Assembly: GCF_947500985.1 (NCBI RefSeq) | Contig: NZ_CANMTX010000003.1 | Coordinates: 248,001 to 312,000, forward strand | DNA from: an uncultured Maribacter sp. | Lineage (GTDB): Bacteria > Bacteroidota > Bacteroidia > Flavobacteriales > Flavobacteriaceae | Direction: 5' to 3' | DNA length: 64,000 bases | Shown: one piece after another, positions 1 to 20,923 of the stretch | Numbering within the stretch: the first letter of the stretch is position 1 | Layout of the letters: the number at the start of each line of letters is the position of its first letter | Position numbers and translations under genes: made by a program | The notes under the pieces: model-generated | Told to the model about the DNA's origin: nothing | The model's database searches: none | What the model saw: only the letters and a program-made list of their open reading frames with translations

Positions 1-86
1 GAGCTTAGTTCTTCTTTTCGAAGTTTAAACCAAGAGTAAAAAGCTACAAAAGCTGTAAATGCAATAAATGTTAGGGCAGTGTACAT
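1..86 (-). CDS. Sodium:solute symporter (SSS family), N-terminal fragment cut by the window edge
   Basis: Only the first 28 codons are inside the window; the gene runs off the left edge. The ATG is the complement of 84-86. The peptide is a hydrophobic first helix (MYTALTFIAFTAFVAFYSWF) followed by a basic/acidic turn (KLRKEELS). This matches the start of Bacteroidota sodium/sugar symporters of the SSS family, where a 'DGYFLAGRS' segment normally follows; that part is not visible here. It lies directly downstream of myo-inositol oxygenase on the same strand, separated by a terminator hairpin. A TATCTTTA sequence (complement of 105-112) could be its own -7 element. Uptake of myo-inositol or a uronic acid is an inference from the neighbour. 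Confidence 0.7.
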   Translation of the reverse strand, partial: MYTALTFIAFTAFVAFYSWFKLRKEELS

Positions 87-124
87 AGTCTAGTTGGTTG
101 AATTTAAAGATAACGTGCAAAAAA

Positions 125-153
125 AATGCTCTAGTAAAAAATGCTAGAGCATT
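125..153 (-). terminator. Rho-independent terminator of the myo-inositol oxygenase gene
   Basis: A perfect 10-bp inverted repeat (arms 125-134 and 144-153, loop of 9) is followed on the minus strand by a run of about eight T. It lies 24 nt past the MIOX stop and separates MIOX from the symporter gene. Confidence 0.8.
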
Positions 154-176
154 GCTAAACTCAAATAATAGTTAAA

Positions 177-1055
177 TTAAAAACTCAACTTTTCGGGTAG
201 ATACTTCGCTACCAATTCCTTGTAATAAGGAAGTAATTCTTTAGCATCTGGTGGTACAGGTGCCTTTGAATATAGGTCGTAAGGGTTGAACTTTTTCACC
301 CATTCAAACATCTCAATATCTTTTGCGGTCATTAAATGCAAATAGTCATTTTCTCTATGTTGAGAGTAAAAAGAATGATATCTAATCATATATAATGCAG
401 GCTCTGGCAAATAATCTTTCATTATCTGGTACAGATATTCATCATGCCCCCAGCTCATTTTTACATTATCCAATCCACAATTGGGTGAGTATACACCGTA
501 CTTTGTATTATATCTACTATCTGTAGCATCTGGATTTGCACTAAAAAAATCTGGATATACAATTTTGTCTGAATAAGCACATCCTACTGGGAAAGTATCA
601 CCAACAACAGCCCATTGTGGCTCACCAAAGAGACATAATATTTTACCTAAATCGTGAATAAAACCTGTTAAGACGAACCAGTCTGGGTGCCCATCTGCCC
701 TAATAGCCTCTGAAGTTTGTAATAGATGCTGTAACTGATCTAAATCTATATCTGGATCGCTATCATCTACCAAGGTATTTAGAAAATCTACAGCTTCCCA
801 AATTGACATTTCACGTTTATTAAATTGCAGAAATTCTTTCTCTTTTTCAACAACAAAATCATAGGTCTGAAATTCATGGTTTACTCTATAAAATTCTTTA
901 ACTGTATCTAACCTTTCAGAATCTACATAATTTCTAAACTCTTCTTTTTCTTTTGTTGCCTCTTCTGGATCTGGATATCTCTCTAATAAATTATCTTCCC
1001 AATCATCAATATTATCCATGGGATTGTTCTGATTATTATTCAATGATTTTTCCAT
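177..1055 (-). CDS. Myo-inositol oxygenase (MIOX): myo-inositol + O2 to D-glucuronate
   Basis: The 292-residue protein matches the whole MIOX fold (human enzyme about 285 residues). All di-iron ligands of the family can be placed: H110 in [11 protein letters not shown]134 and D135 in GFIHDLGK, H204 in [10 protein letters not shown]227 in IRYHSFY, and D260 in NPYDLYSK. The signatures [10 protein letters not shown] and [21 protein letters not shown] are also present. There is no signal peptide, so it is cytoplasmic. Its product feeds the UxaC/SDR/UxuA steps encoded elsewhere in the window. The ATG at 1055 is used; an internal Met13 is an alternative start. The upstream region carries the TCCAT direct repeat shared with susC, which suggests HTCS control. 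A terminator follows the gene. Confidence 0.95.
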
Positions 1056-1121
1056 AAAAATTGTAATTAATGTTTTGAGTAAGTTGATAAGTTTTTTAGA
1101 TATCTAAAGCATATCTATCTG

Positions 1122-1175
1122 CAATTTATAGCAATTAAGCCATAAGCAAATGGATTATACCATCATAAACATGGA
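1122..1175 (-). promoter_or_regulatory. Putative HTCS box and promoter of the MIOX gene
   Basis: Read in the gene direction (minus strand), two TCCAT elements lie 21 bp apart start to start (complements of 1171-1175 and 1150-1154), the first in the context TCCATGTTT. Exactly 21 nt after the second element comes TAAATTG (complement of 1122-1128), resembling the Bacteroidota -7 box. The same arrangement precedes susC and the DUF1080 gene. Two-turn spacing of direct repeats suits a dimeric AraC-type regulator. Confidence 0.65.
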
Positions 1176-1207: not shown

Positions 1208-4200
1208 CTATTTCAACAACTTACTAGGAGGAAAACCAAATTGCTTCTTAAAACACCTACTAAAATAGAGCGGGTCATTAAATCCTATTAAATCGGTTAC
1301 TTCAGACACATTGTATTTTTTTGTCTTGAGTAATTGTGCAGATTTTTTTAATCTAATGGTACGTATGAACTCGTTAGGTGCCAAGTCTGTCAGTTCTTTT
1401 ATTTTTCGATATAATTTAGAAGAGCTCATTCCTAATTCTCGACACAAATAGTTGGTAGTTAAATCTACATCATCAATACGCGATTCAATTATGTTCGTAA
1501 TCTGTTCCATTAAAGCTTTGTCTACAGGCGAATGTGTAAGTAAACCAACTTCACTTTCTACCTCATTCGAAAATTTTGATTTTAGTTCTAATCGGGTTTT
1601 AATAATATTTACAATTACAGATTTCAATAGAGAAGGATCAAAAGGTTTTACCAGATAAGCATCTGCCCCAACATTATATCCTTTCACCTGATCTTCATTT
1701 TCAGACAATGCCGTTAACAGCACTACAGGAATATGACTTATAAATTCATCATTTTTAAGCTCGTTGCAAAATTCTAATCCGTCCATTACCGGCATCATTA
1801 CATCAGCCACGCAAAGCATCGGTTTTATTTTTCTGCACAACTGTAAGCCTTCCTCACCATTTTCTGCCTCATAAACTTTATAGTATCCAGATAAATAATC
1901 AATTAAATATTTTCTAAGTTCAATATTATCTTCAATAACTAGAACTTTATCTTTTATCTCTGTATTAGTAGTCTTTCTTTTTACTGGAACGTAAGCTTCG
2001 GGTTCTGCAACTTCTTTCGTAGATATAAATTCAAATACTTCTTTTTTAGAATAACTACTTCTACCTATTGGAATTTCAACGGTAAATGTACTTCCTTCAT
2101 TAGGCTTACTTTCTACCACAATTGTCCCCTTATGCAATTCTACCAGCGACTTTACTAAAGATAGTCCAATACCAGAACCTGTATTGTTTTCTTTACTATT
2201 GGTAGCTTGATAAAAACGTGTGAAAATTTTACCTTGGCTTTTTAACGGTATACCAATACCATCATCACTAACTTCAATAACCAATATTTCGTTATTGCTT
2301 TCTTTGAGTTTAATATACAAATCTACATGCCCGTATTTATTGGTGAATTTAATGGCATTAGATAAAAGGTTGTATAAAATTTTATCGAACTTATCTCTAT
2401 CGACCCAACCAAAAAGGGTTTCTTCTTCACTGTTTATATTTAATTCAATTTGCTTATTGTAAGCAAACTCTTTAAAAGATTCGAATGTATTGGTAGTAAA
2501 TAAAAAAACATCTGTTTTAGAAACCTTAAGCTTTAACTCACCTGTTTGTGCCTTTCTGAAATCAAGCACTTGATTCACCAAATTTAAAAGTCTGCTCGCA
2601 TTTTGGTGAATTAGATTGAACCTACTTTTTTGATATTCAGTACTACTTTCATTAGTTTCTTCTAGTAATTGTTTTGCCGGACCCAAAATCAAGGTTAAAG
2701 GTGTTCTTAACTCATGAGATATATTCGTAAAAAAACGAAGTTTTTCGTTGTTCAATTTAATATCACGCTCTCTGTTTACCTTCTCAGTTACAAGCTCTTG
2801 CTTTAATCGTAACCTATTCTTCATTTCTTTTCTTATGAAATAAATTATAAGGATAAAAATCAGAAGGAATAAAAGCAATGCTTGGTATGTTAACCAAAAG
2901 GGGGGTGTAATTGTAATGTTATATGAATTTACATCGCTCCAAAACCCATCACTATTACTAGATTTAATTTTAAAGGTATATTCTCCTGGAAACAAGTTTG
3001 TGTATTGAACCGTACGAGAATTACTTGAGGTAGAAATCCAGTTTTCATCAAAGCCCTCTAACATGTATTCAAACTTATTCAGTTTTTCATTGACATATGA
3101 CGGTGCCGAAAATTGAAGTGAAAAGTTTCTGTTTTTATAATCTAATATTACGCTTCTAGTTTCGTTTAAATCTTTTTCTAAAGGAATTTGGTTATTAATT
3201 TCCGTACCTGGATATATTACTTCGTTCTGAATTTTAAATTCAGTAATCATTGGTTTTTTAGCTATTTTATTTTCACTGATGGCATAAGGAGAAAAATATA
3301 TAATTCCGTTTTTACCTCCCAAATAAATATTTGAATTCTCATAGCTATGGAAACCACTAGAACTAAAAACATCTAATCTGTTTCCGCTTTTAACGTCATA
3401 AATATTATAGCTCTCTAAATTAGATTTTAATCTGGCGACACTATTGCTGTTCATGTTAAACCAGATATCACCATTGGTATAGGTTAGCATATCTGTTATC
3501 CATCTATCTTTTAGTTCTTTTGGCTCTTTTAAGGGCTCGAAATTTCTCTTATCTGCGTTAAATACGCTTAAGCCTTGCCTGGTAGAGGCCCACAATCGAC
3601 CTTCATTATCAAACATAATATCACTGACATTATCATGTGGCAGACCTTCATCTATTATAGAAGTTGATTTAAAATATTCAAAAGTATTTTCAACTCTCGC
3701 ATATTTTACGACCCCGGTCTCTGTTGCAAACCATATATTAAGATCATCTTCATTAACAATCTCATTTATTTGATAGTCTTTTAATAACGTTTCTGTACGC
3801 TCTTCTTTTTTAAGTGTGTTCGTATTCAATATTATCGCCCCTTCACCAAAAGAACCAATTACTAACTTATCATCGTTTAAAGTCTCAAATGCGAAAATTG
3901 GTGATTGTTCAAAGCCAATAGCTATTTCTTTAGATGTATTCTGCTCGTAATTATAAACCAGTAATTTACCATTCCATAATCCGCAGTAAAATAAATTACC
4001 ATCAATAGAATATATACTTGCAATATCTTTTTGATTATTATAAAGCGGTAAAAATGCCTCTTCTTCAGAAATAAAAAGTCCGCTATGTCGTGTAGCTACT
4101 ATTACCTTATCATCATAAGTTTTGGCAAAACCACGAATTCTAGGTACTTGATTATTTATATGTAGAGAGATATCTTTATTGATGTTAAATTGGTTTTCAT

Positions 4201-5242
4201 AAGGATCATATTTATCTAACCCATCTTCTGTACCGATCCATAGTACGCCAGAGGCATCAAAAAATAAAGACGAAACCATATTATCTACCAGCGAAGTATC
4301 ATCTGGTAATTCAGAATAATACCATTTAAAATCACCAGCACTAATATTTTCTAACTGATCACAAACAATTAAACCGCCTAAGGTGCCAACCCAATATTTA
4401 CCATCTGGTGCTTGAATTACAGATAGAAAATACGGCCCTAATCCATCTTTAACCTCTGGATCTTTAATTTCAAGATTTTCAAATTCGTTTTTTGTTCTAT
4501 TCAGTTTATATAAACCTTCTCTAGTACCTATAAAAATATCTGATTTTGCGTCTTCGTATATAAAGTTTAAATACGGATTTTTTTCTACCGAATTTGGTAT
4601 TGATAGGTTATATATTATTTTCTGCTTTACTTCTCCCTCAACACCCAAAGTTAATTTAGCAACTCCGCCCGAATCATAACTACCAATCCAAATATCACCG
4701 TTTTTATCTTCGAAAATTTCTTTGATATAATTAAAACCTACTATATCAACTTTTTTAAATCTATCAGATTTGTTGTTTAATATATATAGCCCGCTATTTT
4801 TGGTGCCTACCCAAACCCGTTTGTATTTATCTACATAAACAGATCTAATTTCTGCTTCAGGCAAACCATCTTCATTATCCTTTTCGGGTAAATATGTACT
4901 AAATATTTGGGTATCGGTTTTAAAAAGAGAAAGACCATTTCTAGTACCAATCCATAAACTATTAGAATCTTCATCTAATTCTAAAGCGGTAATATCATCA
5001 TTGTATAACTTGGTATTAGCTGTAGAAGAACTTAAATAAGATTTAAACTCATAACCATCAAACCGGTTTAGACCAGAGAATGTACCCAACCACAAAAAGC
5101 CATGTTTATCTTGAACAATATGCCTAACGGCATTATGAGATAAGCCACTATCATCATTATAATGCTCAAATTTTATATTCTGTGCAGTTAAGCTAGCTAC
5201 AAAAAATATGGTACTAAAAAATATGCCAAAAAGATTTCGCAT
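1208..5242 (-). CDS. Hybrid two-component system (HTCS) sensor-regulator of the utilisation locus
   Basis: This 1344-residue one-protein sensor/regulator probably senses a periplasmic breakdown product of the target glycan. Domains in order: signal peptide 1-20; two seven-bladed-type Reg_prop beta-propeller regions with repeated WxGT-like motifs (about 25-690); Y_Y_Y domain (about 700-770); one transmembrane helix (about 777-800); HisKA with phospho-acceptor H843 in NISHELRTPL; HATPase_c with an N box (LLSNAIKF) and G boxes (DDGIGIP, GSGIGLSL); a receiver domain with phospho-acceptor D1147 in ADVMMP; and a C-terminal AraC-type HTH (about 1250-1344). The family normally activates the adjacent susCD locus. 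It is the last gene of the minus-strand hydrolase cluster and faces MIOX across the conserved TCCAT repeat. Confidence 0.95.
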   Translation of the reverse strand: MRNLFGIFFSTIFFVASLTAQNIKFEHYNDDSGLSHNAVRHIVQDKHGFLWLGTFSGLNRFDGYEFKSYLSSSTANTKLYNDDITALELDEDSNSLWIGTRNGLSLFKTDTQIFSTYLPEKDNEDGLPEAEIRSVYVDKYKRVWVGTKNSGLYILNNKSDRFKKVDIVGFNYIKEIFEDKNGDIWIGSYDSGGVAKLTLGVEGEVKQKIIYNLSIPNSVEKNPYLNFIYEDAKSDIFIGTREGLYKLNRTKNEFENLEIKDPEVKDGLGPYFLSVIQAPDGKYWVGTLGGLIVCDQLENISAGDFKWYYSELPDDTSLVDNMVSSLFFDASGVLWIGTEDGLDKYDPYENQFNINKDISLHINNQVPRIRGFAKTYDDKVIVATRHSGLFISEEEAFLPLYNNQKDIASIYSIDGNLFYCGLWNGKLLVYNYEQNTSKEIAIGFEQSPIFAFETLNDDKLVIGSFGEGAIILNTNTLKKEERTETLLKDYQINEIVNEDDLNIWFATETGVVKYARVENTFEYFKSTSIIDEGLPHDNVSDIMFDNEGRLWASTRQGLSVFNADKRNFEPLKEPKELKDRWITDMLTYTNGDIWFNMNSNSVARLKSNLESYNIYDVKSGNRLDVFSSSGFHSYENSNIYLGGKNGIIYFSPYAISENKIAKKPMITEFKIQNEVIYPGTEINNQIPLEKDLNETRSVILDYKNRNFSLQFSAPSYVNEKLNKFEYMLEGFDENWISTSSNSRTVQYTNLFPGEYTFKIKSSNSDGFWSDVNSYNITITPPFWLTYQALLLFLLIFILIIYFIRKEMKNRLRLKQELVTEKVNRERDIKLNNEKLRFFTNISHELRTPLTLILGPAKQLLEETNESSTEYQKSRFNLIHQNASRLLNLVNQVLDFRKAQTGELKLKVSKTDVFLFTTNTFESFKEFAYNKQIELNINSEEETLFGWVDRDKFDKILYNLLSNAIKFTNKYGHVDLYIKLKESNNEILVIEVSDDGIGIPLKSQGKIFTRFYQATNSKENNTGSGIGLSLVKSLVELHKGTIVVESKPNEGSTFTVEIPIGRSSYSKKEVFEFISTKEVAEPEAYVPVKRKTTNTEIKDKVLVIEDNIELRKYLIDYLSGYYKVYEAENGEEGLQLCRKIKPMLCVADVMMPVMDGLEFCNELKNDEFISHIPVVLLTALSENEDQVKGYNVGADAYLVKPFDPSLLKSVIVNIIKTRLELKSKFSNEVESEVGLLTHSPVDKALMEQITNIIESRIDDVDLTTNYLCRELGMSSSKLYRKIKELTDLAPNEFIRTIRLKKSAQLLKTKKYNVSEVTDLIGFNDPLYFSRCFKKQFGFPPSKLLK

Positions 5243-5303: not shown

Positions 5304-7199
5304 TTAAGGTGATTTTCTGTTTATTTCACCTAGCTCTAAATCAATTACAAAATGATTCGAAGGTTCTCCCTTTCTACTTTTTTCAAATATTTCTGCCCAT
5401 TCTTTTAAATATGGATCATCTATTATTTTTAATTGATTACAGACCATTTCATATTGCTTTAAACGAATTTCACCAATGTCGTCAAATGCCAATTCATCTG
5501 CGCTTCTTAATCTATAAAAATCATAAATCATATGAAACCCTGTCCATGTTTTAAAATCTTCAAGATCTAGATTAGCAGATACTAATTCTGTCACAAGACT
5601 ATCTTTATTTTCTGTGGTTGAGAATAATAATTCTGCCCCTGTTTTATTTAAAAAAATTTCAGAGAAATTAACAGGAAAATCATTTGGTAAAAATCGTAAT
5701 CGCACCAATTCTTTTAAATGCCAAGCAGTAAATTCTTTATAATTCTTGGTAGACAAAATCTCTTTGTCCCAAATAGTAGAAGCCTCTATTGCTTTTAAAT
5801 ATTCATATTCTTTTTCATATAAAGGGAACAAGTTATTAAAACCTTTTACAGATTTCAACACTACAGTTTCTACTTGAAACTTCGTATTAGATTTTATGGT
5901 CAACAACTTATAAGCTGGTGCATAGGCAGCTAACGACGGTGTTTGTATATTGAATAGTGTATTGCCATTATTATTTTTTCGTACACCTGTGTCATTAATA
6001 TGCATATGACCACCAAAGTGTATTTGTATACCTGCATTTGCAAATGTTTCTGCAACTTCTTCATTTGGTACTCGATGCAATTGCATTTTACCTTCTCCAA
6101 AAAAATGCTTCATTTCTTTTGAAGCATCATCATTAAAATCTATCATTGGGTAATGACTAAAGGCTATCAATACCTTGTCTTTGTCTTTTGCTTGCGCTGC
6201 AACCTTTTTTACCCAAGTAATTAAATGTGTTTTTTGTAATAAAACATTGTTGTAGCCAATACTTGCACCTGAAAAATCTTTTGCATTTTCAGAAATGGCA
6301 GATAGTTTTTTATTTGGCAAATAAACATTCGCATCTATTGCCAAAAGCCAAACACCTCCTTTTAGCTCTACTAAATAACTGGCATCTGGATGTCTATTAA
6401 ATTCATCTATTGCATAAGTTCTATTTTCTAAAGCTGAGGCATTTGTTGCTTTATCAAATGAATAGTTTTCGTAATTGTATTTAGAAAAGGGAGTTTCCCA
6501 ATACACGTATTTTTTCTGAGGATAAAACCCAAAGGCAGACATTTCGTTTAAAATATCTTTATAACCCCATTTTTTTATTTCAGTCGTTATTATTGGAGTG
6601 AGTTGCCCAGCAACGGTATCCTTAATATTTTCAACAGCACTGGTTATAATTTGTTCTTTACCCCCCGCTCCCAGAAAATCTGTTTTACCAGATTCTTGTG
6701 TAAATGGTTTAACAGGATCATGATTACCTGTGGTGGCAAAAAATAAGATTCCGTGGTTTTTGGAGTATTTGTCCAAAATCTTCCGTAAACCTTTAACGTG
6801 AACGGGTTGACCATCATCACTAAAATCACCGGGTAATGCTACGTATTTTATTCCTCTGACGACAATATCATCTAGGGCTTCAATGAATGCAAAGTAGTTT
6901 TCATTAAATATTCTGGTCGATTGCAATTGCGCATTCATGGTACGAATATTCACAAAGTCGCCCGTTTCTGGGTTTTTGATTCCTTTGTAATCGGCATCTT
7001 CAAAATGTGCATAGATATCTTGAAAATGTGCATCTGCAATGAACGCAATTTTCACTTCTTCAAATTCCTTTTCCTTTTTATTGCCACAAGAAAGCATCAA
7101 ATATAGCAGAACAACACATAGAAATCTATACTGCTGTTTTATACTAAATTGATTTATTTTTTGACCGTTTCTTTCGGAAACGCATAGCTCTTTTTCCAT
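5304..7199 (-). CDS. Calcineurin-like metallophosphoesterase, probable lipoprotein
   Basis: The metallophosphoesterase motifs appear in order: IADAH, PGDFSDDG, TTGNHD, FSHYP and GGHMH, which supply the two-metal site. The N-terminus carries a hydrophobic stretch ending in a lipobox (LMLSCGN), so it is probably membrane-anchored and exported. An in-frame ATG at 7253 lies deep inside the GH115 gene. The ATG at 7199, which overlaps GH115 by 46 nt, is preferred but still gives a long n-region (lipobox Cys at residue 38), so a non-ATG start nearer the lipobox is possible. The C-terminal 250 residues have no motif I recognise. Its place in the locus beside a PI-PLC-like protein suggests removal of phosphate from a phosphorylated sugar, inositol or lipid headgroup. 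The substrate is not shown. Confidence 0.85.
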   Translation of the reverse strand: MEKELCVSERNGQKINQFSIKQQYRFLCVVLLYLMLSCGNKKEKEFEEVKIAFIADAHFQDIYAHFEDADYKGIKNPETGDFVNIRTMNAQLQSTRIFNENYFAFIEALDDIVVRGIKYVALPGDFSDDGQPVHVKGLRKILDKYSKNHGILFFATTGNHDPVKPFTQESGKTDFLGAGGKEQIITSAVENIKDTVAGQLTPIITTEIKKWGYKDILNEMSAFGFYPQKKYVYWETPFSKYNYENYSFDKATNASALENRTYAIDEFNRHPDASYLVELKGGVWLLAIDANVYLPNKKLSAISENAKDFSGASIGYNNVLLQKTHLITWVKKVAAQAKDKDKVLIAFSHYPMIDFNDDASKEMKHFFGEGKMQLHRVPNEEVAETFANAGIQIHFGGHMHINDTGVRKNNNGNTLFNIQTPSLAAYAPAYKLLTIKSNTKFQVETVVLKSVKGFNNLFPLYEKEYEYLKAIEASTIWDKEILSTKNYKEFTAWHLKELVRLRFLPNDFPVNFSEIFLNKTGAELLFSTTENKDSLVTELVSANLDLEDFKTWTGFHMIYDFYRLRSADELAFDDIGEIRLKQYEMVCNQLKIIDDPYLKEWAEIFEKSRKGEPSNHFVIDLELGEINRKSP

Positions 7200-11188: not shown

Positions 11189-13765
11189 TTATAAGGTTTT
11201 TGATGTTTGAAGTCGAATATCTTTAGAAGACGCTCCTATCATAAACTGATACTCTCCATTTTCAAATGTCCATTGTTTAGAATTTTCATCCCAATACTGC
11301 AGGTCATTTTCAGACACTTTAAATTGCACAGTCGTAGATTCGTCTAGAGCTACTTGAATTCTTTCAAACCCTATCAATTTTTTTATCGGTCTTTTTACAG
11401 TAGAATTATTTACGGTATAATATAATTGTACCACCTCATCGCCATTATAATTTCCAATATTTTTAATTGTTGCGGAAATTAAAATACTATCATTTGTAGT
11501 CTTCACTTTTAGTTTATCATATGTAAACTTGGTATAACTTAACCCATAACCAAAGGGATACAATACATCTCCCTTAAAATACATATACGTTCTACCGTTA
11601 GACACTTCATAGTCATCCATATCAGGCAAATCTAAAACCGACTTATAAAACGTAAAAGGCAATCTACCCGCAGGGATATAATCTCCGAATAATACATCTG
11701 CAATGGCAGTACCACCAGCTTCACCAGGATACCATGCATCGACAATTGCAGGTACATTTTCATCTATCCAATTAATAGCCAAAGAGCTCCCTGCAACCAA
11801 AACAATAATTAGATTTTTGTTCTCGGCATATATCTCTTTCAAATAATTGACCTGGTCTTCTGGCAATTCTAAAGAAGTTCTATCGCGTCCTTCCTTTTCA
11901 ATAGATTTATTAATACCCATTACAGCAATCACATAATCACTCTCCTTTGCAACTTGCTTGTCCTCCTTATAAAAATCGTCTGTTGTTGTAGGTACTTCCC
12001 AAAGCAATTGACAAATGGCATCGCCTCCATTATCAAAATACTCTAATTTGATAGCGTATTTTTCACCCGCCTTCATATCTATTGCTACCTGGTCTGTAGT
12101 CATACCACGATTATGCCATTCATCTACCACCAATTCGCCATTCAACCACATTTTAACACCATCATCAGAATTTACTCCAATTTTGTATACTCCTGAAAAA
12201 TTAGGAGTTATGTATCCAGACCAGCGCATAGATTTATGACGAAAATTGGTATAAGTATCTGGCGGATTATTTACCGGATCAAAATTCACCACTTTATCAA
12301 TGCGCGTTTGTGGGGTACCCTCTAAGAATTTGTCATCATAATATTCCCCGTACAAACCAGATTCACCAGTTTGATCATTCACCAAATTTTCAGCTTCAAT
12401 TAAATTTAAGTTTCTAGCCGCCGTTTTCCATTTTACATAAGTGACCTTTGCTTTATCACCGATTTTGTTTCTAATACCTTCTAAAGGAGATATGGGTTTA
12501 ATTACCGGAAGACCACTATAGTCACCAAAAACAACTTGATTAGCATTAAAACCGACAACCGCAATTTTTTTAATTTCGTTTACATTTAAAGGCAAAATAT
12601 CATTTTGATTCTTCAACAAAACCATAGATTGTCTTGATGTTTCCAATGCCAGTTCTTGGTGCTTTTTAGATCCAATTACATCTGGAGAGATTTTGGTATA
12701 TGGGTTATCGTCAACCTTATCAAAAATCCCTAATTTGAAACGAGCGGTTAAAACCCTTTTTACCGCTTTATCTATATTTTCTTGAGACACCAGCCCATTT
12801 TCATATGCCTTTAACAGGTGTTCAGCATAAATATCGTCTCCACACTCCAAATCAAGCCCACCTTCTAAAACTACTTTAGCAGCCTGTTCTTTGGTCGTAA
12901 CATACTTGTGCGATTTCTGAATATAGGTTGGCGCACCACAATCACTAACTACATAACCCTCAAACCCCCATTCATCTCTTAAAACAGTATTCAATAGCCA
13001 ATCATTTGCTGTACTAGGCACCCCATTTAAAGCATTGTATGCACTCATAATAGATTGTGCATTTCCCTCTTGAACAGCCACTTTATATGCAGGAAAATAA
13101 TATTCACGTAAAGATTTTTCTGAAATATTGACGTTGTAAGCAAACCTATTTTCTTCTTGGTTATTGGCTACAAAATGCTTCGGTGTTGATACTACTTTTA
13201 AATATTTATCATCATCGCCTTGTAAACCCTTTACAAAAGAAATTCCTATTCTACTCGTTAAATAGGGGTCTTCACCATAGGTTTCTGGAGTTCTACCCCA
13301 GCGTGGATCTCTAGCCATATTGATCGTTGGCGACCAAAATGTAAGCAAATCACTATAGACATTTTTTTGATCTTTACCTTGGTTATAGAAGTTCCATTTA
13401 CCTCTAGCTTCATCAGAAATAGCCGTAGATACCTCATAAATTAAATCAGGATTCCAAGTCGCTGCTAATGCGATAGCCTGTGGAAAAACCGTAAAACGCC
13501 CTCCTTTAACCACACCATGCAATGCTTCATTACCATGGTAATATTTTTCTATATCTAACCTAGAAATTGCTTCGGCGGTAGAAACCATCATAGAAATTTT
13601 TTCTTCGATAGTTAAGCGCGCTACTAAATCATCTACTCTGGTCTCAAGAGGCAATTCTTGATTTTGAAACGTGTATTTTTCCTGTGAAAAACCTAGGACA
13701 GGAAGGAGTATTAAAGCGACTATGAAACTCTTTTTTATGATCATTCTAAAACTAAAATTATGCAT
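11189..13765 (-). CDS. GH3 beta-glycosidase with inserted PA14 domain
   Basis: This is an 858-residue GH3 enzyme with a signal peptide; Met8 gives a tighter one than Met1 (ATG at 13744). The GH3 N-domain shows NMARDPRWGRTPETYGEDPYL, KHFVANNQEENR and the nucleophile D275 in YVVSDCGAP. A PA14 domain (about 468-590, GLYGEYYDD to CQLLWEVP) is inserted in the second alpha/beta domain. A fibronectin-like C-terminal domain follows (YPFGYGLSYTKF). GH3 members cleave terminal beta-glucose, xylose or similar residues, and the sugar cannot be read from sequence. PA14 insertion often shapes the active site for oligosaccharides. It starts 7 nt after the repaired end of the GH29 gene. Confidence 0.93.
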   Translation of the reverse strand: MHNFSFRMIIKKSFIVALILLPVLGFSQEKYTFQNQELPLETRVDDLVARLTIEEKISMMVSTAEAISRLDIEKYYHGNEALHGVVKGGRFTVFPQAIALAATWNPDLIYEVSTAISDEARGKWNFYNQGKDQKNVYSDLLTFWSPTINMARDPRWGRTPETYGEDPYLTSRIGISFVKGLQGDDDKYLKVVSTPKHFVANNQEENRFAYNVNISEKSLREYYFPAYKVAVQEGNAQSIMSAYNALNGVPSTANDWLLNTVLRDEWGFEGYVVSDCGAPTYIQKSHKYVTTKEQAAKVVLEGGLDLECGDDIYAEHLLKAYENGLVSQENIDKAVKRVLTARFKLGIFDKVDDNPYTKISPDVIGSKKHQELALETSRQSMVLLKNQNDILPLNVNEIKKIAVVGFNANQVVFGDYSGLPVIKPISPLEGIRNKIGDKAKVTYVKWKTAARNLNLIEAENLVNDQTGESGLYGEYYDDKFLEGTPQTRIDKVVNFDPVNNPPDTYTNFRHKSMRWSGYITPNFSGVYKIGVNSDDGVKMWLNGELVVDEWHNRGMTTDQVAIDMKAGEKYAIKLEYFDNGGDAICQLLWEVPTTTDDFYKEDKQVAKESDYVIAVMGINKSIEKEGRDRTSLELPEDQVNYLKEIYAENKNLIIVLVAGSSLAINWIDENVPAIVDAWYPGEAGGTAIADVLFGDYIPAGRLPFTFYKSVLDLPDMDDYEVSNGRTYMYFKGDVLYPFGYGLSYTKFTYDKLKVKTTNDSILISATIKNIGNYNGDEVVQLYYTVNNSTVKRPIKKLIGFERIQVALDESTTVQFKVSENDLQYWDENSKQWTFENGEYQFMIGASSKDIRLQTSKTL

Positions 13766-13772: not shown

Positions 13773-15192
13773 TTATTTTAACTCAATTCTAAAACCAGAA
13801 ATAGGAATAACTTGATCACTATTCACAGGCATTTTTAATGTAAGACCCTTTGTGGTTTGCTTCCATTTTACATTGTTTGAACTGTCTAGTGGTGTCACCG
13901 ATTTTATTTTAGCTCCGTTTTTTTGTCGCCAATGCTGCAATGGTTACTTCCGCGGTAGTGGTACTGCATACGTAGGCATAAATAAAATTATTCTTTGTTG
14001 TGAATATTACTTCTGGGAAAATGTCTTTAGAAGTACCATCATGCAAATTATCTTTCATGTTATCTTCTTCCTCAGAAGCATTAGTTTCCTCGACGCTCTC
14101 AACAACTTCTGTAAGTCGTTCACTTTGCACGCTCCATGGTTTAGAGCCATAAATGCCTTCAGCATTCTGTTTGATCCAAGAACCTATTTCATTCAATCGT
14201 TCTTGCGCTAAATCTGTAATTTCTCCTTTGGCAGTTGGACCGTTATTTAATAATAAATTTCCTCCTTTACTTACAATTTCTAGAAGTTGTCTGGTCATTA
14301 ATTCTGAAGATTTATAAACGGTATCATACTCAATATATCCCCAGTTTTTTCCCATGGTAATACACGCTTCCCAAGGTTCTACTTCCAAGCCATCAACAAT
14401 TTCTTGCTCGGTAACTTTATAATCCCCAAAACCATGTTTAATACGACTGTTTATAATACAATGAGGTTGTAAATCAAGTATTAACTCTCGCAATTCTTTG
14501 CTTTCTTCAGAACTAATCAATTCTGGAGTATCAAACCACATAACATCAATTTTTCCGTATTGCGTAAGTAATTCTTTTACCTGTGGTTTCACTTTTCGCT
14601 CAAAATACCGACTAAACACTTTTATATCTTCATCTGGAAAATCTACCAAATTACTACGGCCGCCTTTATGCGGCCAATTTGTTGCCACATCAGGGTCTTC
14701 CCAATCACGACCTAAAGAGTAATAAAACCCAAATTTCATGTTGTGCTTATGGCAAGCGGCCACCAATTCTTTCATAGGATCTTTAGAGTAGGGTGTTCTA
14801 CTTTTTATATTGTAATCGTTTGATGGAGAATCAATCATTGCAAAGCCATCATGGTGTTTAGAGGTGATGATGATATATTTCATGCCTGCCTCCTTTGCGG
14901 TAAGCACCCATTTTTCTGCATTGAAATTAGTGGGGTTAAAATCATCTGCAATGATAGCATATTCTTTTAGCGCTATTTTCTCATGAATCATGAAATGCTC
15001 ATTACCTTTTGCTACATGTCCATCCCAATACCCAGCAGTTTGCGAGTATAAACCCCAATGCATAAACATACCAAATTTGGCATCTTTCCACCAGTCCATT
15101 TTATCAGATGATTGGGCTAAGGCACTACTCATAAAAATAATTGCAAAACCTAAACTCAAATAAAAATTTCTACCACAAACATCGTTCTTCAT
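13773..15192 (-). CDS. GH29 alpha-L-fucosidase-type enzyme, frameshifted near the C-terminus
   Basis: A secreted GH29 enzyme (signal peptide to about residue 27). Catalytic-domain motifs are FGMFMHWGLYS, SKHHDGFAM, FYYSLGRDW, MWFDTPE (nucleophile D221), WEACITMG and KGGNLLLNNGP. As written, the frame ends early at 13909 (427 residues). Skipping one base in the seven-A run (complement of 13918-13924) opens a frame of 48 residues (NGAKIKSVTPL ... ISGFRIELK) that stops at 13773. This is a typical GH29 C-terminal beta-sandwich end, and it finishes just before GH3. The extended span is therefore given. Causes could be a sequencing error, a recent indel, or slippage on the A-run. A short acidic insertion (about residues 363-390) is unusual. 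Confidence 0.85.
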
Positions 15193-15227: not shown

Positions 15228-16526
15228 CTATTTCTTTATAAACTCTACATTCGTTATTTTTACCACAATTGGGTTTGGCCATACTTTATCATTATAAAGT
15301 CTTTGCGCTCTACTTATTGAGATCTCCAGTAAATCTTTATGTTGAATATACCTTGATGTAGGTGTGTTTTCTGGCCAATACTCTACTACTAAATCATTCT
15401 GTCCAAGAACCGAAACATTCGTGTATATAGTGGCTTTCATGTTTTTGAGCAAAAAATTCCTCCTAAAACCTTTAAACCAATCTTTTTGCCCGGTAATAAA
15501 CACATATGCGGTGTTTTCATCGGTACCTTTAGTAAACCACATAGCACCATCTTTAACAATAGTAGGTACGGGTCTTACATTTTTTATCCCTTCTTCATTC
15601 ACATACATCCAAAGTGCTATTTCACGCAAGCGCTCTTCTTGTTCTATAGGAATTTCACCGTTAGGTTTAGGACCTATATTCATCAAGAAATTTCCTCCTT
15701 TAGCTCTTATTTCTATCAATTTCTCAATTAACTCGGTTCCGCTTTTATATTCTTCGTGAGTTGGTTTATACTGCCATTGTGTACCCATGGTCATACATGT
15801 TTCCCATGGTCCAGGCATAGCTGTATTTGGTATATTCTGTTCAGGCGTTTTCATTTCTCCACGTGTAACTACAATATTGGAATCCAAAGAATGTACATAT
15901 TTTACAATTGGCGATGTTTTAAAGGCGTCAAAGAAAATTACATCAATAGGTCCGTAATTATTCACTAATTCCTTAACCTGCTTTTTATCATATTCCAATA
16001 AGTCTTCATTTTCGGTAATCTGACTCATTGTACTATTTCTAGAAATAAGTTCACCTTGTTTGTTTAAAAAACTAAAATCTTCAGGAGAAAAATACACTCC
16101 TACTTTAAGTCCTTGTTTGCGTAACGCAGTAAAAAGTTCTCCGGTAATATCCTTACCATATGGGGTATTCATAATATTAAAATCTGTCGTATCAGTATCC
16201 CACATGCAAAACCCATTATGATGTTTGGTGGTGAACACAACATATTCTGCACCAGTTATCTTAAATAATCTTGCCCATTCATCGGCATCAAACTTATCTG
16301 GATAAAACGTTTTAGGAAGTTCATTAAAATACCTGTTCACATAATCATCTGATGCCCCTACTAACGAATGGCTTATTACACTACCCAATTGAGAATCTAA
16401 GCTCCAATGCACAAAAATCCCAAAGCCCATATCCATAAAATCCTGTTCTAGATGTGGCTGATTTTTTAACTGGGTAAAGGCAGTTGTACAAACAAGAAAT
16501 AACAAAACTGATAATTTAAATCTCAT
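15228..16526 (-). CDS. GH29 alpha-L-fucosidase-type enzyme (second copy)
   Basis: This 432-residue secreted enzyme has a signal peptide of about 19 residues. GH29 motifs: FGIFVHWSLDS, TTKHHNGFCMWD, KVGVYFSPED, IDVIFFDAF (probable nucleophile D200), WETCMTMG and KGGNFLMNIGP. It is clearly divergent from the neighbouring GH29; for example FFDAF replaces WFDTP. The pair may therefore act on different linkages or different alpha-fucose/alpha-galactose-type residues. It sits 4 nt after GH92 and 35 nt before the other GH29, in the same transcript. Substrate preference cannot be read from sequence. Confidence 0.9.
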   Translation of the reverse strand: MRFKLSVLLFLVCTTAFTQLKNQPHLEQDFMDMGFGIFVHWSLDSQLGSVISHSLVGASDDYVNRYFNELPKTFYPDKFDADEWARLFKITGAEYVVFTTKHHNGFCMWDTDTTDFNIMNTPYGKDITGELFTALRKQGLKVGVYFSPEDFSFLNKQGELISRNSTMSQITENEDLLEYDKKQVKELVNNYGPIDVIFFDAFKTSPIVKYVHSLDSNIVVTRGEMKTPEQNIPNTAMPGPWETCMTMGTQWQYKPTHEEYKSGTELIEKLIEIRAKGGNFLMNIGPKPNGEIPIEQEERLREIALWMYVNEEGIKNVRPVPTIVKDGAMWFTKGTDENTAYVFITGQKDWFKGFRRNFLLKNMKATIYTNVSVLGQNDLVVEYWPENTPTSRYIQHKDLLEISISRAQRLYNDKVWPNPIVVKITNVEFIKK

Positions 16527-16530
16527 GCTA

Positions 16531-18864
16531 TTATTTTATATTATTGGTCATTTCTAAAATTAGCTTACCCCCTTTTGTAATGTCTTCATGTCTAAGGCTA
16601 TTAGCTTTTAATGACGACCCATTAAACTCAGCTTCTGATATATAAAAATTAGCATCATTATTATTGTTCGCTTTAATGGTGAACATGCCACCATTATAAA
16701 AATCCTTATTCAATTTAATATTGACCTCATCGAAAATTGGACTTCCAATTTGATATTCAGGATTAGCTTCTGTACCTCCGTTCATTTGAAATATTCCAAT
16801 TTTAATAAGTACAGCCAAACTACCCATGAGACCTTGATCTTCATCACCGTTATATCCTGTAGATGGTGACAAGCCACCAAAGACAGTTTTTGCTACTTTT
16901 CTTGACCACAATTGGGTTAAATCTGGTCTATTTAATTGATTAAAAATAAAAGCAGTCTGTATAGAAGGTTGATTACCAAAATTGATTGGAATTCTACTAT
17001 ACTCAGGATGTAATTCTGCTGAATGTGATGTACCTGCCGTAAAACCTAAATCTTCTGCAGTTTCAAACTGTTCATTTAGCTTTTTAATCGCAGCATCTTC
17101 ACCTCCCATTAAGGTTGCTAATCCTTTTATATCATGTGGAACAAACCATGTAGATTGTGCACCGTTAGATTCTATAAATCCATTTTCTGCTTGGTATGGA
17201 TCATAATCCTTCTTCCATTGACCATCAACATCTTTTGGTCGCATCCAACCTATTTGAGTATCGAAAACACTTTTATAGCTCGTAGACCTTTTTATGAAAT
17301 AATCATAATCATCTGTATGCCCCAATCTTTTTGCCAACTGAGCTAAAGTCCAATCTTGATAGGCATATTCCATTGTTAAACTTGCCCCATCTTGATGGCT
17401 ACCAAATTTACCTTCCGGAATAGGGTAAGGTACATAACCTTGATCTATATAATATTTTAAACCACCGCCAACATTTGTTTCGTGCTCATAACCAGATTTA
17501 CCCATAATTCCATAAGGCATATGATTCTTCTTTAAAGCTTTATAAACACCTTCTAAATCATCAGTCAAAATGCCTTTTTGAATAGCGGTCACTATGAAAG
17601 GTGTAGTGCTAGCCCCGGTCATTACATATGTATAATTACCACCTGACGGACCCCTTGGCACCAAACCACCATCTTTATAATACTGAAGTAAGGAATTTGA
17701 AAATTCATCCATAATTTCAGGATACACTAGTCCCCATAATGTATTTAAAGTCCATTGTGCTCCCCAAAAAGAATCTGAGTTATAATGATTGAATTTAGGG
17801 ACACTCTTAGCATCTAATGGCAATTGCCCAACCCTTAACTTATCTCCTGTATTATCAGGATAAGCACCATTAATATCACTTATAACTCTACGTCCTTGCA
17901 AAGCGTGCCATAAGTCTGTATAAAATCTTCTTTGATCTTGCTCAGAGCCACCTTTTACATCTATTCTGCTTAACAGATTATTCCACTCTTTCTTTGCATC
18001 GCTTCTCGTTTCATTAAAATCCCAATCGGGTAATTCAGATGCTATATTAATTGAAGCATTGGTAACAGAGGTATAAGAAATACCAACTTTCATCAGTACA
18101 TCGTTTTTATTGCCATCTAAACTAATTAAATAATTACCCGTTCGTTCATCTTTATCTAACGAAGATATTTCAGTGTTTAGTTCCACTTTAAAATAAGCAG
18201 TCATTGGTTTGGGTCTTCTATGTGTAGACTCCATAATTATATAACCAGACAGTTCATTTTCAGAAATTTGCTCTAAAAAGCCATCTATGTTTTTACTTGG
18301 TCCTAAAAGTGTATTCAAATTAAAAAGAAGTCCTTTCTCCTCTTCATTATCCGGATAAGAATAGTGATGAAAACCGACCCTTTTAGTACTGGTAAGCTGC
18401 GCTTTTATTTGATACCTCTCTAATTCAACCTTATGATAACCTGGTGTCACTACTTCTGTTTCATGACTAAACTTTGAATAAAAATCATTAAAAATATCTT
18501 TTTTAGTTGTGTCATTAATAGTCACTGGCATAACCGAAATACCCGACATTTGCCAAGCATGAATATGACTAAAACCTTTAATCGTATCTGTCTTATATCG
18601 GTAACCACTACCCCAGGCACCTCCTATTTGCGTGTCTGGACTTAAATTGGCCATACCGAACGGACGACTGGCTGAAGTGAAGTAAAACCATCTTGAATTC
18701 TCTGTATCTAATAATGGATAGACCTTAGCAGCATAATCAGTTTCTTCAACAACAACCTTTTTAGTTGTGCTAGGCTGCTCTTTACAAGAAACTAGAAACA
18801 AAAGCGAAATAGCCAGAAACGCAATGCTGTTTTTATATGTTTGAATAAATGTCATTAATTTCAA
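16531..18864 (-). CDS. GH92 exo-alpha-mannosidase, lipoprotein
   Basis: The 777-residue protein has a lipobox (LLFLVSCKEQ). GH92 motifs include PDTQIGGAWGSGYRY, KGFSHIHAWQMSG, DSFWGAQWTLNTLW, GGNYTYVMTGAS, HETNVGGGLKYY, HQDGASLTMEYAYQDW and GDEDQGLMGS. GH92 enzymes are calcium-dependent inverting exo-alpha-mannosidases, often alpha-1,2-specific. It adds alpha-mannose to the sugars this locus can release. The gene begins 1 nt after the GH115-like gene ends and ends 4 nt before the second GH29. Confidence 0.93.
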   Translation of the reverse strand: MKLMTFIQTYKNSIAFLAISLLFLVSCKEQPSTTKKVVVEETDYAAKVYPLLDTENSRWFYFTSASRPFGMANLSPDTQIGGAWGSGYRYKTDTIKGFSHIHAWQMSGISVMPVTINDTTKKDIFNDFYSKFSHETEVVTPGYHKVELERYQIKAQLTSTKRVGFHHYSYPDNEEEKGLLFNLNTLLGPSKNIDGFLEQISENELSGYIIMESTHRRPKPMTAYFKVELNTEISSLDKDERTGNYLISLDGNKNDVLMKVGISYTSVTNASINIASELPDWDFNETRSDAKKEWNNLLSRIDVKGGSEQDQRRFYTDLWHALQGRRVISDINGAYPDNTGDKLRVGQLPLDAKSVPKFNHYNSDSFWGAQWTLNTLWGLVYPEIMDEFSNSLLQYYKDGGLVPRGPSGGNYTYVMTGASTTPFIVTAIQKGILTDDLEGVYKALKKNHMPYGIMGKSGYEHETNVGGGLKYYIDQGYVPYPIPEGKFGSHQDGASLTMEYAYQDWTLAQLAKRLGHTDDYDYFIKRSTSYKSVFDTQIGWMRPKDVDGQWKKDYDPYQAENGFIESNGAQSTWFVPHDIKGLATLMGGEDAAIKKLNEQFETAEDLGFTAGTSHSAELHPEYSRIPINFGNQPSIQTAFIFNQLNRPDLTQLWSRKVAKTVFGGLSPSTGYNGDEDQGLMGSLAVLIKIGIFQMNGGTEANPEYQIGSPIFDEVNIKLNKDFYNGGMFTIKANNNNDANFYISEAEFNGSSLKANSLRHEDITKGGKLILEMTNNIK

Positions 18865-18865
18865 T

Positions 18866-20923
18866 TTACAGGGTCATTTTAGTAAGATTAGCCTCTATTG
18901 CCGCTAACATATCATAAGTAGGAAAACCGTTATTCTGTCTTCTATTAGCTATAGCGTACCAGTTTTTCCATTTGGTATCGATATCGCCAGAGCTTCTACG
19001 GTCAAAAACTATTTTAAGTTTGCTTTTTGCTGTTGGCAACAATGCAATTGCCTCATTCAAATACTTTTTATCTTTAGTAGTCTCATATTGTTTCTTCAAT
19101 AGAGACATCTTATGAAGTTCAGTTTCAAAAGCTATTAAATCTGAGTATAACTGTGCAGGTAGTAGAATATATGATTGATAGAAATTAGCGTCTCCATTCA
19201 TTTTACCATACCCTAATTCCGCTTCTGAAAGTGATGTTTGCAATAACAATCTTACTTTTTTCGTATTCTCTATATCGCCAATTACACGATTATAATCATA
19301 TGGAATTGGAGATTTACCTGGCCTCACTATCGGTGCATTAGAAAGATAAGATACAGCCTCCCTAATTTCCCATAAGTGTTCTACATAGCCTTTTCTACCT
19401 TCTTGCGCCTCATGCAATAATTTCATTGATGACACAGCATTTTTAGCAGCTTCGTTAGAAAAATATCGATCTGTCCATGTGGTATAAAAATTGTCAGCGT
19501 TAAAGTCTTTTGGGCTATAACACACTTGGCTATATGCCTCTAGATTCAATAGAAATGGTCTAAAATTTTGTCCATTTACCAGACAATATTTATCAGCATC
19601 GTATTGCTGAAACATATCTTTCATAACCGACTCTACCTTTTCAGGATATGGATTATGTACGGTATGATTCAACCAATAACCTGCATGCATGTAAGTACCA
19701 AATTCATAGCCTTTGGTATCTTTTAATTCATGATCAAAAGTGCCAAAACCATGATCAGACCATACTACGGTCCAATCTTTTGGCGGGTTAAAGCCCTCAT
19801 TAAACATCTCCATACCGTCACTATAACAAATGGCTACTTTTATAGCATCTTCGTTATATTTATCGACCAAGAGACCAAACTCTTTATACACTTCGTTGAA
19901 AACTTCAATTTTACTTTCTCCACAAGAGCTTTTATATTCCCAATCCCAAACTTGGTTTCTAGGTCTGAGAACAAAAATATCGGTCTTACGTAATGGTGTT
20001 TCTTCTAAATAATATTTCCAAGCCGTGAGCCAGTCTTCTCTATATTTAGACCAACAATCTGCCTTGTTCTCATCCATAGGATGTATTTGATAACCTAACT
20101 CAAAATCTACTTGAATTTTCATTCCTTTTGATTTGGCGTAGTCAATCATTTTATCCAAATATTCAATATCTATCTGGTAATTAGGGTTCAATTTTTTATA
20201 CTCAGGTCTTACATAAAATTCTGGTCTACCTAACATATCAAAAAATTGAATAGCGTTGTAACGTAGGCGTACCAATGAATTGATCATTTCAGTATAACTT
20301 TCCCAATCGTACTCTAAAAGCTTACCCCTATAATTGGCAAGCTCATCAACATCATTTTCAAAATAAGCCAAAATTGGCACCTTTGGCGGCGCAATGGTTT
20401 TTGGAGTAAAATTGAAAACATCAACCAAAGTCTTTTTGCTAGGTAGTTTCCCTGTCCAATACTCCAATGGATCAACTCCTAAAACTTCTTTACTATAATC
20501 GTAAACTGCATATTGTAACCCTTCAACATCTGAACCGGCCAATACAATAACCTCTGTAATATTGGCATATGTATTCTTAGACCAAATACCACCACGTGGA
20601 CCAGGGTTTATCTTAGATAATTCTAAGTTATTCTTGGATATCAATTCGGCAAGTATTGTATTTGAATCTGGTGTACCTAAAACAAAAACAGCCGTATTTT
20701 CAGGTATTATAGTTCCCTCTTTTACAATCTCGATTTCTTCTTCCAATACCTTTTCAAGGTCTGTTTTTAGATCTTTAATTGTAGAAATTTCTACATCATT
20801 AGCATTTTTACCTGTTATTAAATAAACAGAATGGCTTTTTTTAATACCATTGCATGCCAAATAAAAAGACATGAAAATGGTAATTAAAAAGAAGTGTTTT
20901 ATATATCTAAATTTTTTAATCAT
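18866..20923 (-). CDS. GH115-like lipoprotein, putative glycoside hydrolase
   Basis: The 685-residue protein has a lipobox (Cys24, FYLACNG). The N-terminal domain (AVFVLGTPDSN, VIVLAGSDVEGLQYAVYDYS, LGVDPLEYWTG) resembles the GH115/GH67-type N-domain. The following barrel is collinear with the locus's GH115. VVWSDHGFGTFDHEL (about residue 385) corresponds to LVWTDDNYGYIRQL (about 395), YMHAGYWLNHTVHNP to YYHTSYWGRPHDYLW, and YCLVNGQNFRPFLLNLE to WILNCGDIKPHEYNIELF. It lacks the long GH115 C-terminal beta domain. I recognise no named family; a uronic-acid-active hydrolase is the best guess. It is the first hydrolase gene after susCD. Confidence 0.7.
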   Translation of the reverse strand: MIKKFRYIKHFFLITIFMSFYLACNGIKKSHSVYLITGKNANDVEISTIKDLKTDLEKVLEEEIEIVKEGTIIPENTAVFVLGTPDSNTILAELISKNNLELSKINPGPRGGIWSKNTYANITEVIVLAGSDVEGLQYAVYDYSKEVLGVDPLEYWTGKLPSKKTLVDVFNFTPKTIAPPKVPILAYFENDVDELANYRGKLLEYDWESYTEMINSLVRLRYNAIQFFDMLGRPEFYVRPEYKKLNPNYQIDIEYLDKMIDYAKSKGMKIQVDFELGYQIHPMDENKADCWSKYREDWLTAWKYYLEETPLRKTDIFVLRPRNQVWDWEYKSSCGESKIEVFNEVYKEFGLLVDKYNEDAIKVAICYSDGMEMFNEGFNPPKDWTVVWSDHGFGTFDHELKDTKGYEFGTYMHAGYWLNHTVHNPYPEKVESVMKDMFQQYDADKYCLVNGQNFRPFLLNLEAYSQVCYSPKDFNADNFYTTWTDRYFSNEAAKNAVSSMKLLHEAQEGRKGYVEHLWEIREAVSYLSNAPIVRPGKSPIPYDYNRVIGDIENTKKVRLLLQTSLSEAELGYGKMNGDANFYQSYILLPAQLYSDLIAFETELHKMSLLKKQYETTKDKKYLNEAIALLPTAKSKLKIVFDRRSSGDIDTKWKNWYAIANRRQNNGFPTYDMLAAIEANLTKMTL

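Follow-up and report, generated by a model that had tools for sequence, protein, structure and literature searches.

A Maribacter locus joining α-glucuronidase, phospholipase, and myo-inositol oxygenase genes, probably directed at glycosylinositol lipid headgroups

The described systems closest to the locus treated here are of two kinds. PUSI of Flavobacterium johnsoniae (PusCD1, Fjoh_4172, and Fjoh_4173), a phosphorus-scavenging system (PUS), includes a SusC/D-like pair, a phosphoinositide phospholipase C (PI-PLC) of the PI-PLC-C1 family (pf16670), and a metallophosphoesterase (pf00149); in the available excerpts of its description (PMC8115612), it lacks carbohydrate-active (CAZy) enzymes, and phosphate depletion induces it. 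The polysaccharide utilization loci (PULs) of Bacteroidota governed by hybrid two-component systems (HTCSs) hold SusC/D, exported glycosidases, the HTCS, and a terminator-like hairpin after susD. We analyzed a stretch of 64,000 nucleotides (the window) from an uncultured Maribacter sp. (assembly GCF_947500985.1, contig NZ_CANMTX010000003.1, positions 248,001 to 312,000), which contains a locus resembling both. It shares the SusC/D-like pair, the PI-PLC-C1, and the metallophosphoesterase with PUSI, to which it adds the glycoside hydrolases GH115, GH92, GH29, and GH3, an HTCS, and myo-inositol oxygenase (MIOX). It also has neighboring susC and susD genes, glycosidases, and a dedicated HTCS sensor-regulator, as PULs do, and differs from these in that the set includes a phospholipase predicted to cut lipids, a phosphoesterase, and MIOX, which would burn the aglycone, inositol. 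The MIOX, PI-PLC-like, phosphoesterase, GH115, and GH92 proteins named in the initial annotation all have Pfam matches.

The genes and their conservation make it probable that this is a PUL-type locus, related to PUSI, for the headgroup of lipids of the glycosylinositol phosphorylceramide (GIPC) type, in which outer sugars are carried by glucuronic acid (GlcA) bound α1-2 to inositol-1-phosphate on ceramide or another lipid. The evidence also leans, less strongly, toward such loci forming a widespread and previously undescribed bacterial regulon for the use of GIPC headgroups down to the inositol ring, from which MIOX would yield the same glucuronate as the headgroup sugar.

Conservation and linkage of the core genes

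Genomes of a 199-genome sample of the family are labeled G (G000 is the host) and individual locus stretches L. Of the sampled genomes, 29 have a full-length MIOX and 14 a strong PI-PLC-C1 match; 10 have both (Fisher p 6e-7), or 9 when the host is excluded (p 3e-6). The two genes are <15 kb apart in six of the ten co-holders (G000, G002, G006, G044, G061, and G152), among which G006 has both genes of other clades and two stop codons in MIOX. The G006 locus (G006:C3:79025-106000; L059 and L060), where PI-PLC lies near a MIOX with two in-frame TGA codons and the symporter is in pieces, is probably decayed or marred by sequencing errors. The clade of the window MIOX is found in 12 of the 199 genomes. 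In five of these (G000, G002, G044, G061, and G152) a single locus unites MIOX with PI-PLC, phosphoesterase, and HTCS; the G002 locus has the GH115-like form only.

When named genomes were scanned, 493 PI-PLC relatives came to light, and the 80 best were taken further; the five closest among these are all from Maribacter (89 to 76% identity). The 80 loci were split by gene content into 49 PUL-type loci and 31 others, so that the contrasts in GH115 and HTCS between the two groups are partly by construction; the first 43 loci of the ranked list are all PUL-type, with no gap. Within 10 kb flanks, the 49 PUL-type loci have a phosphoesterase in 48 cases, an HTCS homolog in 48, GH115 in 38, a GH92 of >50% identity in 35, and MIOX in 21, whereas among the 31 others, a few on short contigs, the phosphoesterase is present in 16 and an HTCS homolog of >40% identity, GH115, GH92 of >50%, and MIOX in none. 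The gene after PI-PLC in the PUL-type loci is GH115 (38), phosphoesterase (10), or GH29 (1). MIOX is present in 46 of the 47 PUL-type genomes searched. Contigs were usable in 42, and by coordinates MIOX lies ≤25 kb from PI-PLC in 41 of them, L106 and L120 carrying no verdict. In nine genomes read from the MIOX side, its contig has the same length as that of PI-PLC in eight, L108 being the exception, and in L131 and L144 MIOX lies within the locus. The linkage of these genes is far beyond chance.

Many of the 31 other loci resemble PUSI: the phosphoesterase stands next to PI-PLC in the 16 cases and a SusC-like gene is present in 22. DctM is nearby in 5 and UxaC in 4, a hint that uronate may matter in PUSI-like loci too. 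A PI-PLC-C1 of the phosphate-scavenging type lies close to DctPQM and UxaC in L066, L128, L135, L149, and L152, which makes a second link from inositol phospholipase to the uptake of uronate.

Regulator, shared motif, and enzymes

That MIOX is under the same apparent control as susC, as the initial annotation had it, is borne out by a 26-bp motif, TCCATGTTTnnGATGnnnnnnTCCAT, which stands upstream of both genes (1150-1175 and 26091-26116) and has no further site in the whole 4.25 Mb genome at ≤2 mismatches; the reversed pattern has none at all under the same conditions. Because the motif was picked after looking, the two window sites are no test of it; the test lies in the counts across the genome and across genera. 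A search of 90 relative loci (1.77 Mb) at ≤3 mismatches gives 39 matches: 26 upstream of MIOX (30 MIOX genes), 9 upstream of susC, 1 upstream of a short open reading frame (ORF) adjoining MIOX, and 3 elsewhere, against 1 match altogether when each locus was shuffled once. Matches occur in 11 of 36 further stretches, L077 among them. Another 22 genomes were searched with a slightly different pattern and tallied by hand; they include 9 of the 11 genomes other than the host with the window MIOX clade, G135 and G137 being outside this search. These nine hold 18 matches, 16 within 30 kb of MIOX (G144 and G153 have none), and the 13 genomes without the clade hold 5, as do all 22 together in the reversed-pattern control. 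In many relatives MIOX and the symporter gene diverge from susC. A match in L077 lies 4 kb from a MIOX, in a genome that holds only the other MIOX clade. One of the 5 matches in genomes without the clade is in G001, which also has the other clade; it lies 6 kb from a GH115-like gene (G001:C12:397078-403530), and this stretch may be another relative of the locus.

The HTCS has no full-length paralog in the genome (the best other match is 28% over residues 538-1063). Its sensor region is 39 to 84% identical to that of its homologs (median 60%, 43 full-length rows), including those in loci that differ in susC/D and outer enzymes. We infer that the HTCS binds the 26-bp motif and, as its ligand, recognizes the inner portion of the substrate common to the loci.

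The window MIOX, the only one in the genome, matches its Pfam family over the cut-off, and its residues H110, H134, D135, H204, H227, and D260, which presumably line up with the di-iron ligands, are invariant in 17 aligned sequences. The nearest solved structures of the adjoining symporter are sodium/glucose cotransporters. Homologs of at least 62% identity adjoin MIOX in 15 of 18 genomes mapped (this genome counted, and the G006 copy in pieces), and the protein is likely to be an inositol importer. For IolE there are five matches in the genome, all under the cut-off, so that MIOX is the only inositol route seen and the classical iol pathway was set aside, the remaining iol genes lying outside the search. 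The usual steps after glucuronate are covered in the window by DctPQM and UxaC on the minus strand and by a short-chain dehydrogenase (SDR) and UxuA on the plus strand. A second MIOX clade, 47 to 50% identical to the window protein, is found with the same kind of symporter away from such loci (L076-L080), and would be a plain inositol-use module. A fusion of NagB (glucosamine-6-phosphate isomerase) and PIG-L de-N-acetylase (L166:3824-5752; homologs in L057, L076, L167, L168, L170, L171, and L232) adjoins the MIOX symporter in five Flavobacterium genomes.

The PI-PLC has a Pfam match over the cut-off and a model (pLDDT 91.9) of PI-PLC fold, with best matches to the Pseudomonas 5fyr (E 1e-13) and Streptomyces antibioticus 3h4w (E 8e-13) enzymes, followed by mammalian PLC-delta. 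Residues H35, N36, E80, D82, and H126 are invariant in 37 sequences and resemble what we take to be the catalytic and calcium set of this fold. Because GlcA would block O-2 of the inositol, the proposed substrate suggests attack by another hydroxyl; trans-1,6 attack has reportedly been proposed for the Streptomyces relative 3h4w. The metal-ligand motifs of the phosphoesterase are invariant in 32 sequences. Its model (pLDDT 90.9) is nearest to Lmo2642 (2xmo), then to acid-sphingomyelinase-like enzymes and purple acid phosphatases, so that it may act on monoesters or on diesters. The search for lipoprotein signals used a simple lipobox pattern, which missed 22 of 49 PI-PLCs, partly from wrong starts, so that cell location can be assigned only tentatively.

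The nearest solved protein to the window GH115 is BtGH115A (5by3), and xylan α-1,2-glucuronidases match too, so that the protein has both the family match and relatives of known α-glucuronidase activity. In a tree of 82 GH115 rows, all 46 locus-linked proteins fall in one fully supported group of 48, completed by proteins of G100 and G117, whereas the other GH115s of the family entered in the tree fall outside, including those of G075, a genome of the same genus that lacks the locus. The tree was made by a quick method and has many near-copy rows; four duplicates and one row of 732 aa were dropped, and rows of <600 aa were not entered. What can be read from sequence of the checks proposed by the initial annotation, namely the private MIOX/susC motif and the separate GH115 clade, thus favors a target containing GlcA and inositol phosphate. 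Two proteins with no Pfam match, of 597 aa (L095:6559-8352) and 187 aa (L095:5965-6528), recur in several Flavobacterium loci; L095 and L098 hold both with no GH115 in view, and the two are candidates for a novel glycosidase family.

PI-PLC, GH115, phosphoesterase, HTCS, and MIOX are mostly constant across loci, and the enzymes for the tip of the headgroup vary. Many loci with marine names have GH92 with GH29, or GH92 with GH125 and GH28; of the 49 PUL-type loci, 6 have GH43 and 10 have GH125, and the G115 locus has GH2. GH89 is present in eight of the 49 (F. palustre, undicola, glycines, sufflavum, daejeonense, and pokkalii, a Flavobacterium metagenome bin, and Wenyingzhuangia marina). All eight also have a homolog of HGSNAT, side by side with GH89 in seven and one ORF away in L108, and so do the five other GH89 loci seen (side by side in G144, G115, G100, and G117, and in the same locus in G164). 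These membrane proteins matched Pfam DUF5009 under its cut-off (L107:8769-9911, L104, L108, L112, L114, L117, L118, L120, and others), and their family profile matches human HGSNAT at E 6e-32. HGSNAT acetylates terminal α-glucosamine, which NAGLU (GH89) can then remove.

Excerpts from the plant literature give structures with which these enzymes can be compared. The GIPC core is GlcNAc(α1-4)GlcA(α1-2)inositol-1-O-phosphorylceramide, and further sugars reported are GlcN, Ara, Gal, and Man (PMC8099651). The addition of GlcA is described as plant-specific (PMC9113257). GlcA carries Man in Arabidopsis leaf and GlcN(Ac) in rice and tobacco (PMC7980081 and PMC9113257). Among 102 GIPCs of barley grain, 60 belong to the A- or B-series and bear a free amine; the listed plant GIPC sugars include fucose (PMC12201980). 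For every bond in these structures the loci offer a candidate family, although GH2 is in one locus only; for the Man-type A-series headgroup the candidates, assigned by family, are GH92, GH115, PI-PLC, phosphoesterase, and MIOX.

Proposed pathway and alternative targets

In the scheme that we propose, activities are assigned from enzyme family, and the order of steps, the cell locations, and the inducer are predictions built on the observed genes, their conservation, and the shared motif. PI-PLC would cut the lipid off, leaving an inositol-phosphate glycan to be imported by SusC/D. GH29, GH3, and GH92 would trim the outer sugars, the phosphoesterase would remove the phosphate, and GH115 would split GlcA from inositol. 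The symporter would take up inositol and MIOX would turn it into glucuronate, so that the GlcA of the headgroup and that derived from inositol would both enter UxaC, SDR, and UxuA. The HTCS, acting on the 26-bp motif, would switch susC and MIOX on together. The divergent GH115-like protein has no place in this scheme.

A glycan with GlcA and inositol phosphate had been put forward as the target from the window alone, and the cross-genome evidence supports it. Of the examples offered, a plant-type glycosylinositol phospholipid fits better than a glycosylphosphatidylinositol (GPI) anchor, because GPI is not known to carry GlcA and GH115 is kept in 38 of 49 loci. PI-PLC, the GH92 and GH125 mannosidases, and GH89 with the HGSNAT homolog would all suit a GPI anchor or a mannosylated inositol lipid; GH115, in a clade of its own and directly after PI-PLC in those 38 loci, speaks against such a target, and we set the GPI anchor aside and consider a reading of this kind quite unlikely. 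It is also unlikely, if slightly less so, that the locus is a PUS in which phosphate from phosphatidylinositol or similar diesters is the aim and the sugar enzymes clear the way. The SusC/D-like pair and the phosphoesterases are indeed there, the phosphoesterase follows PI-PLC in 16 of the 31 other loci, and PUSI, with PusCD, PI-PLC-C1, and metallophosphoesterase, responds to phosphate depletion; that such an enzyme pair also works in phosphate scavenging weighs against the GIPC reading. Yet the absence of CAZy enzymes is what distinguishes PUSI and PUSII from PULs (excerpts of PMC8115612), whereas the window cluster has many, GH115, GH92, GH29, and GH3 among them; it also has its own HTCS and a MIOX with the susC motif, and the burning of inositol would be needless to a phosphate system. 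The solved GH115s, which include xylan α-1,2-glucuronidases and BtGH115A, could instead point to glucuronoxylan, arabinogalactan, or fucoidan, with the inositol genes there by chance. GH3 and GH29 suit such glycans, and GH115 is said to accompany fucosidases where fucoidan is degraded. The proteins of the window locus, however, include no endo-xylanase, polysaccharide lyase, or sulfatase, and no sulfatase was seen in the relatives: among 519 ORFs of >300 aa in PUL-type loci, an S1-like signature within the first 250 residues turned up once, in a GH43. The link between GH115, PI-PLC, and HTCS is, moreover, kept across genera. Plain xylan (no xylanase in the locus) and fucoidan (no sulfatase in the PUL-type loci) were thus set aside, and a locus for one of these three glycans is very improbable.

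Several observations weigh against a GIPC-type headgroup as the common substrate. The motif was a post hoc choice, spotted by reading the upstream sequences after a general comparison of upstream regions in 18-base windows had done no better than shuffles. Among the 12 genomes with the window MIOX clade, the core is not kept throughout: five have PI-PLC in the locus, four (G115, G127, G153, and G164) have HTCS with MIOX and no PI-PLC in the stretches read, and three (G135, G137, and G144) have no HTCS near MIOX. Nowhere in the G115 and G164 genomes is there a PI-PLC match, G127 has no GH115 in the stretch read, and the genome of L121 has no MIOX. The G100 and G117 loci hold GH89, the HGSNAT homolog, GH115, and HTCS, with no MIOX or PI-PLC. 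GH115 is missing from view in 11 of the 49 PUL-type loci (6 with the divergent GH115-like protein only and 5 with neither), and GH28 (20 of 49) and GH3 (16 of 49) are outside the proposed scheme. G061 and G006 have the HGSNAT homolog with no GH89 in view, GH89 without an orthologous GH92 is seen only in Flavobacterium loci (wider flanks read), and L104, G115, G164, and G100 have both. Because some loci lack PI-PLC or GH115, these loci may also serve for headgroups already released, or our reading may be incomplete. Finally, the occurrence of GlcA-bearing GIPCs documented in the excerpts at hand is in land plants and one seagrass. If GIPC-type headgroups are nevertheless the substrate, a bold corollary is that GlcA-inositol-phosphate lipids yet to be described would be made by the marine algae on which Maribacter and Algibacter graze.

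Layout of the window and related systems

On the minus strand the reading order is susC, susD, hairpin, GH115-like, GH92, GH29, GH29, GH3, PI-PLC-C1, GH115, metallophosphoesterase, HTCS, MIOX, and symporter, the last at the window edge. From the GH115-like gene through the HTCS, intergenic gaps are ≤61 bp with two overlaps, except for 143 bp before GH3; HTCS and MIOX are 152 bp apart, and MIOX has its own motif site upstream. The real start of the metallophosphoesterase is probably 3′ of the listed ATG. The initial annotation had named susCD, UxaC, SDR, UxuA, and a rhamnosidase alongside the enzymes of positions 1-20923. All are in the window, beyond that span, and the rhamnosidase, SDR, and UxuA are on the opposite strand from the remaining locus genes; the rhamnosidase lies outside the conserved core. 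A 3-keto-disaccharide hydrolase family protein is paired at 26346-29095 with a GFO/IDH/MocA dehydrogenase, the latter a relative of glycoside 3-dehydrogenases, and such a pair is also near MIOX in G002, G137, and the M. luteus stretch L174; it may be a second way of cleaving a glycoside of the locus substrate. Adjoining an SDR, at 33134-35419, is a DUF7133 protein with a C-terminal cytochrome c domain.

Table 1. Positions of the locus genes, motif sites, and neighboring features in the window
Feature	Position	Strand	Basis
Sodium/solute symporter, first codons (525 aa in total)	1..86; rest left of the window, G000:C3:246509-248086	-	PF00474 E 1e-52
MIOX, no signal peptide seen	177..1055	-	PF05153 E 7e-111; solved MIOX 2huo E 5e-87
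26-bp motif upstream of MIOX, proposed HTCS site	1150..1175	-	Motif search
HTCS: propeller sensor, HisKA, HATPase, receiver, AraC-type HTH	1208..5242	-	Domain matches
Calcineurin-type metallophosphoesterase, probably exported (lipoprotein-like signal judged by eye)	5304..7253	-	PF00149 E 7e-9
GH115 (α-glucuronidase)	7154..10159	-	PF15979 E 6e-131
PI-PLC-C1, Ca-dependent type, lipoprotein-like signal	10122..11186	-	PF16670 E 3e-123
GH3 glycosidase with PA14 insert	11189..13765	-	Pfam; under every NCBIfam cut-off shown, no sugar assigned
GH29 (α-L-fucosidase family), first	13909..15192	-	Pfam
GH29 (α-L-fucosidase family), second	15228..16526	-	Pfam
GH92 (α-mannosidase family), lipoprotein-like signal	16531..18864	-	Pfam; solved GH92 matches down to E 9e-77
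Divergent second GH115-like protein	18866..20923	-	PF15979 E 7e-16
Terminator-like hairpin at the susD/enzyme-gene boundary	21167..21197	-	Fold z -3.6
SusD-like protein	21249..22925	-	Pfam
SusC-like TonB-dependent transporter	22942..26034	-	Pfam
Same 26-bp motif upstream of susC	26091..26116	-	Motif search
Weaker motif copy with 3 mismatches, oriented toward the genes that start at 26346; may be chance	26263..26288	+	Motif search
Divergent genes: 3-keto-glycoside hydrolase family, GFO/IDH/MocA dehydrogenase, GH78, SDR, UxuA	26346..33123	+	Pfam/NCBIfam
Rhamnosidase (GH78)	29273..31108	+	Pfam
SDR and UxuA	31113..33123	+	Pfam
DctM, DctQ, and DctP (transporter, uronate uptake) with UxaC (glucuronate isomerase, entry step)	43122..47454 (UxaC 45994..47454)	-	Pfam

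GIPCs have been called the predominant glycosphingolipids of plant membranes (PMC12201980) and "the major sphingolipids on earth" (PMC7570276), both as given in excerpts. In the one open-licence collection searched, no published bacterial pathway for their use was found, and GH115 did not appear in the literature on such systems among the matches listed. If our interpretation is correct, the sugar-inositol head of plant-like membrane lipids, including the inositol ring, would be a new bacterial diet and a route by which carbon, phosphorus, and inositol pass from plant and algal membranes to bacteria. The idea of the PUL would widen beyond polysaccharides to take in the headgroup of a membrane lipid, a strain's outer enzymes would predict the headgroup that it encounters, and the loci would supply enzymes for the analysis of GIPC headgroups.

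Single parts of the proposed pathway have counterparts elsewhere. The lysosomal pair of HGSNAT and NAGLU acts in heparan sulfate breakdown and can be likened to the HGSNAT homolog and GH89 of the related loci. Unlike in the lysosome, the partner there is of an α-glucuronidase family, the proposed substrate is GlcN(Ac)-GlcA-inositol, and the pair is found outside the window. A GIPC phospholipase C of Botrytis cinerea makes the same cut as that proposed here, freeing the inositol phosphate glycan from GIPC, but it is a putative sphingomyelinase rather than a PI-PLC-C1, and the available part of the source mentions no catabolic locus (PMC11496612). The Ca-dependent bacterial PI-PLCs 5fyr and 3h4w are the best fold matches of the window enzyme, yet share only 13 to 17% identity with it in structural alignments. 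Judged by its genes, the locus as a whole looks like a PUSI-like pair joined to an α-glucuronidase PUL and an inositol module.

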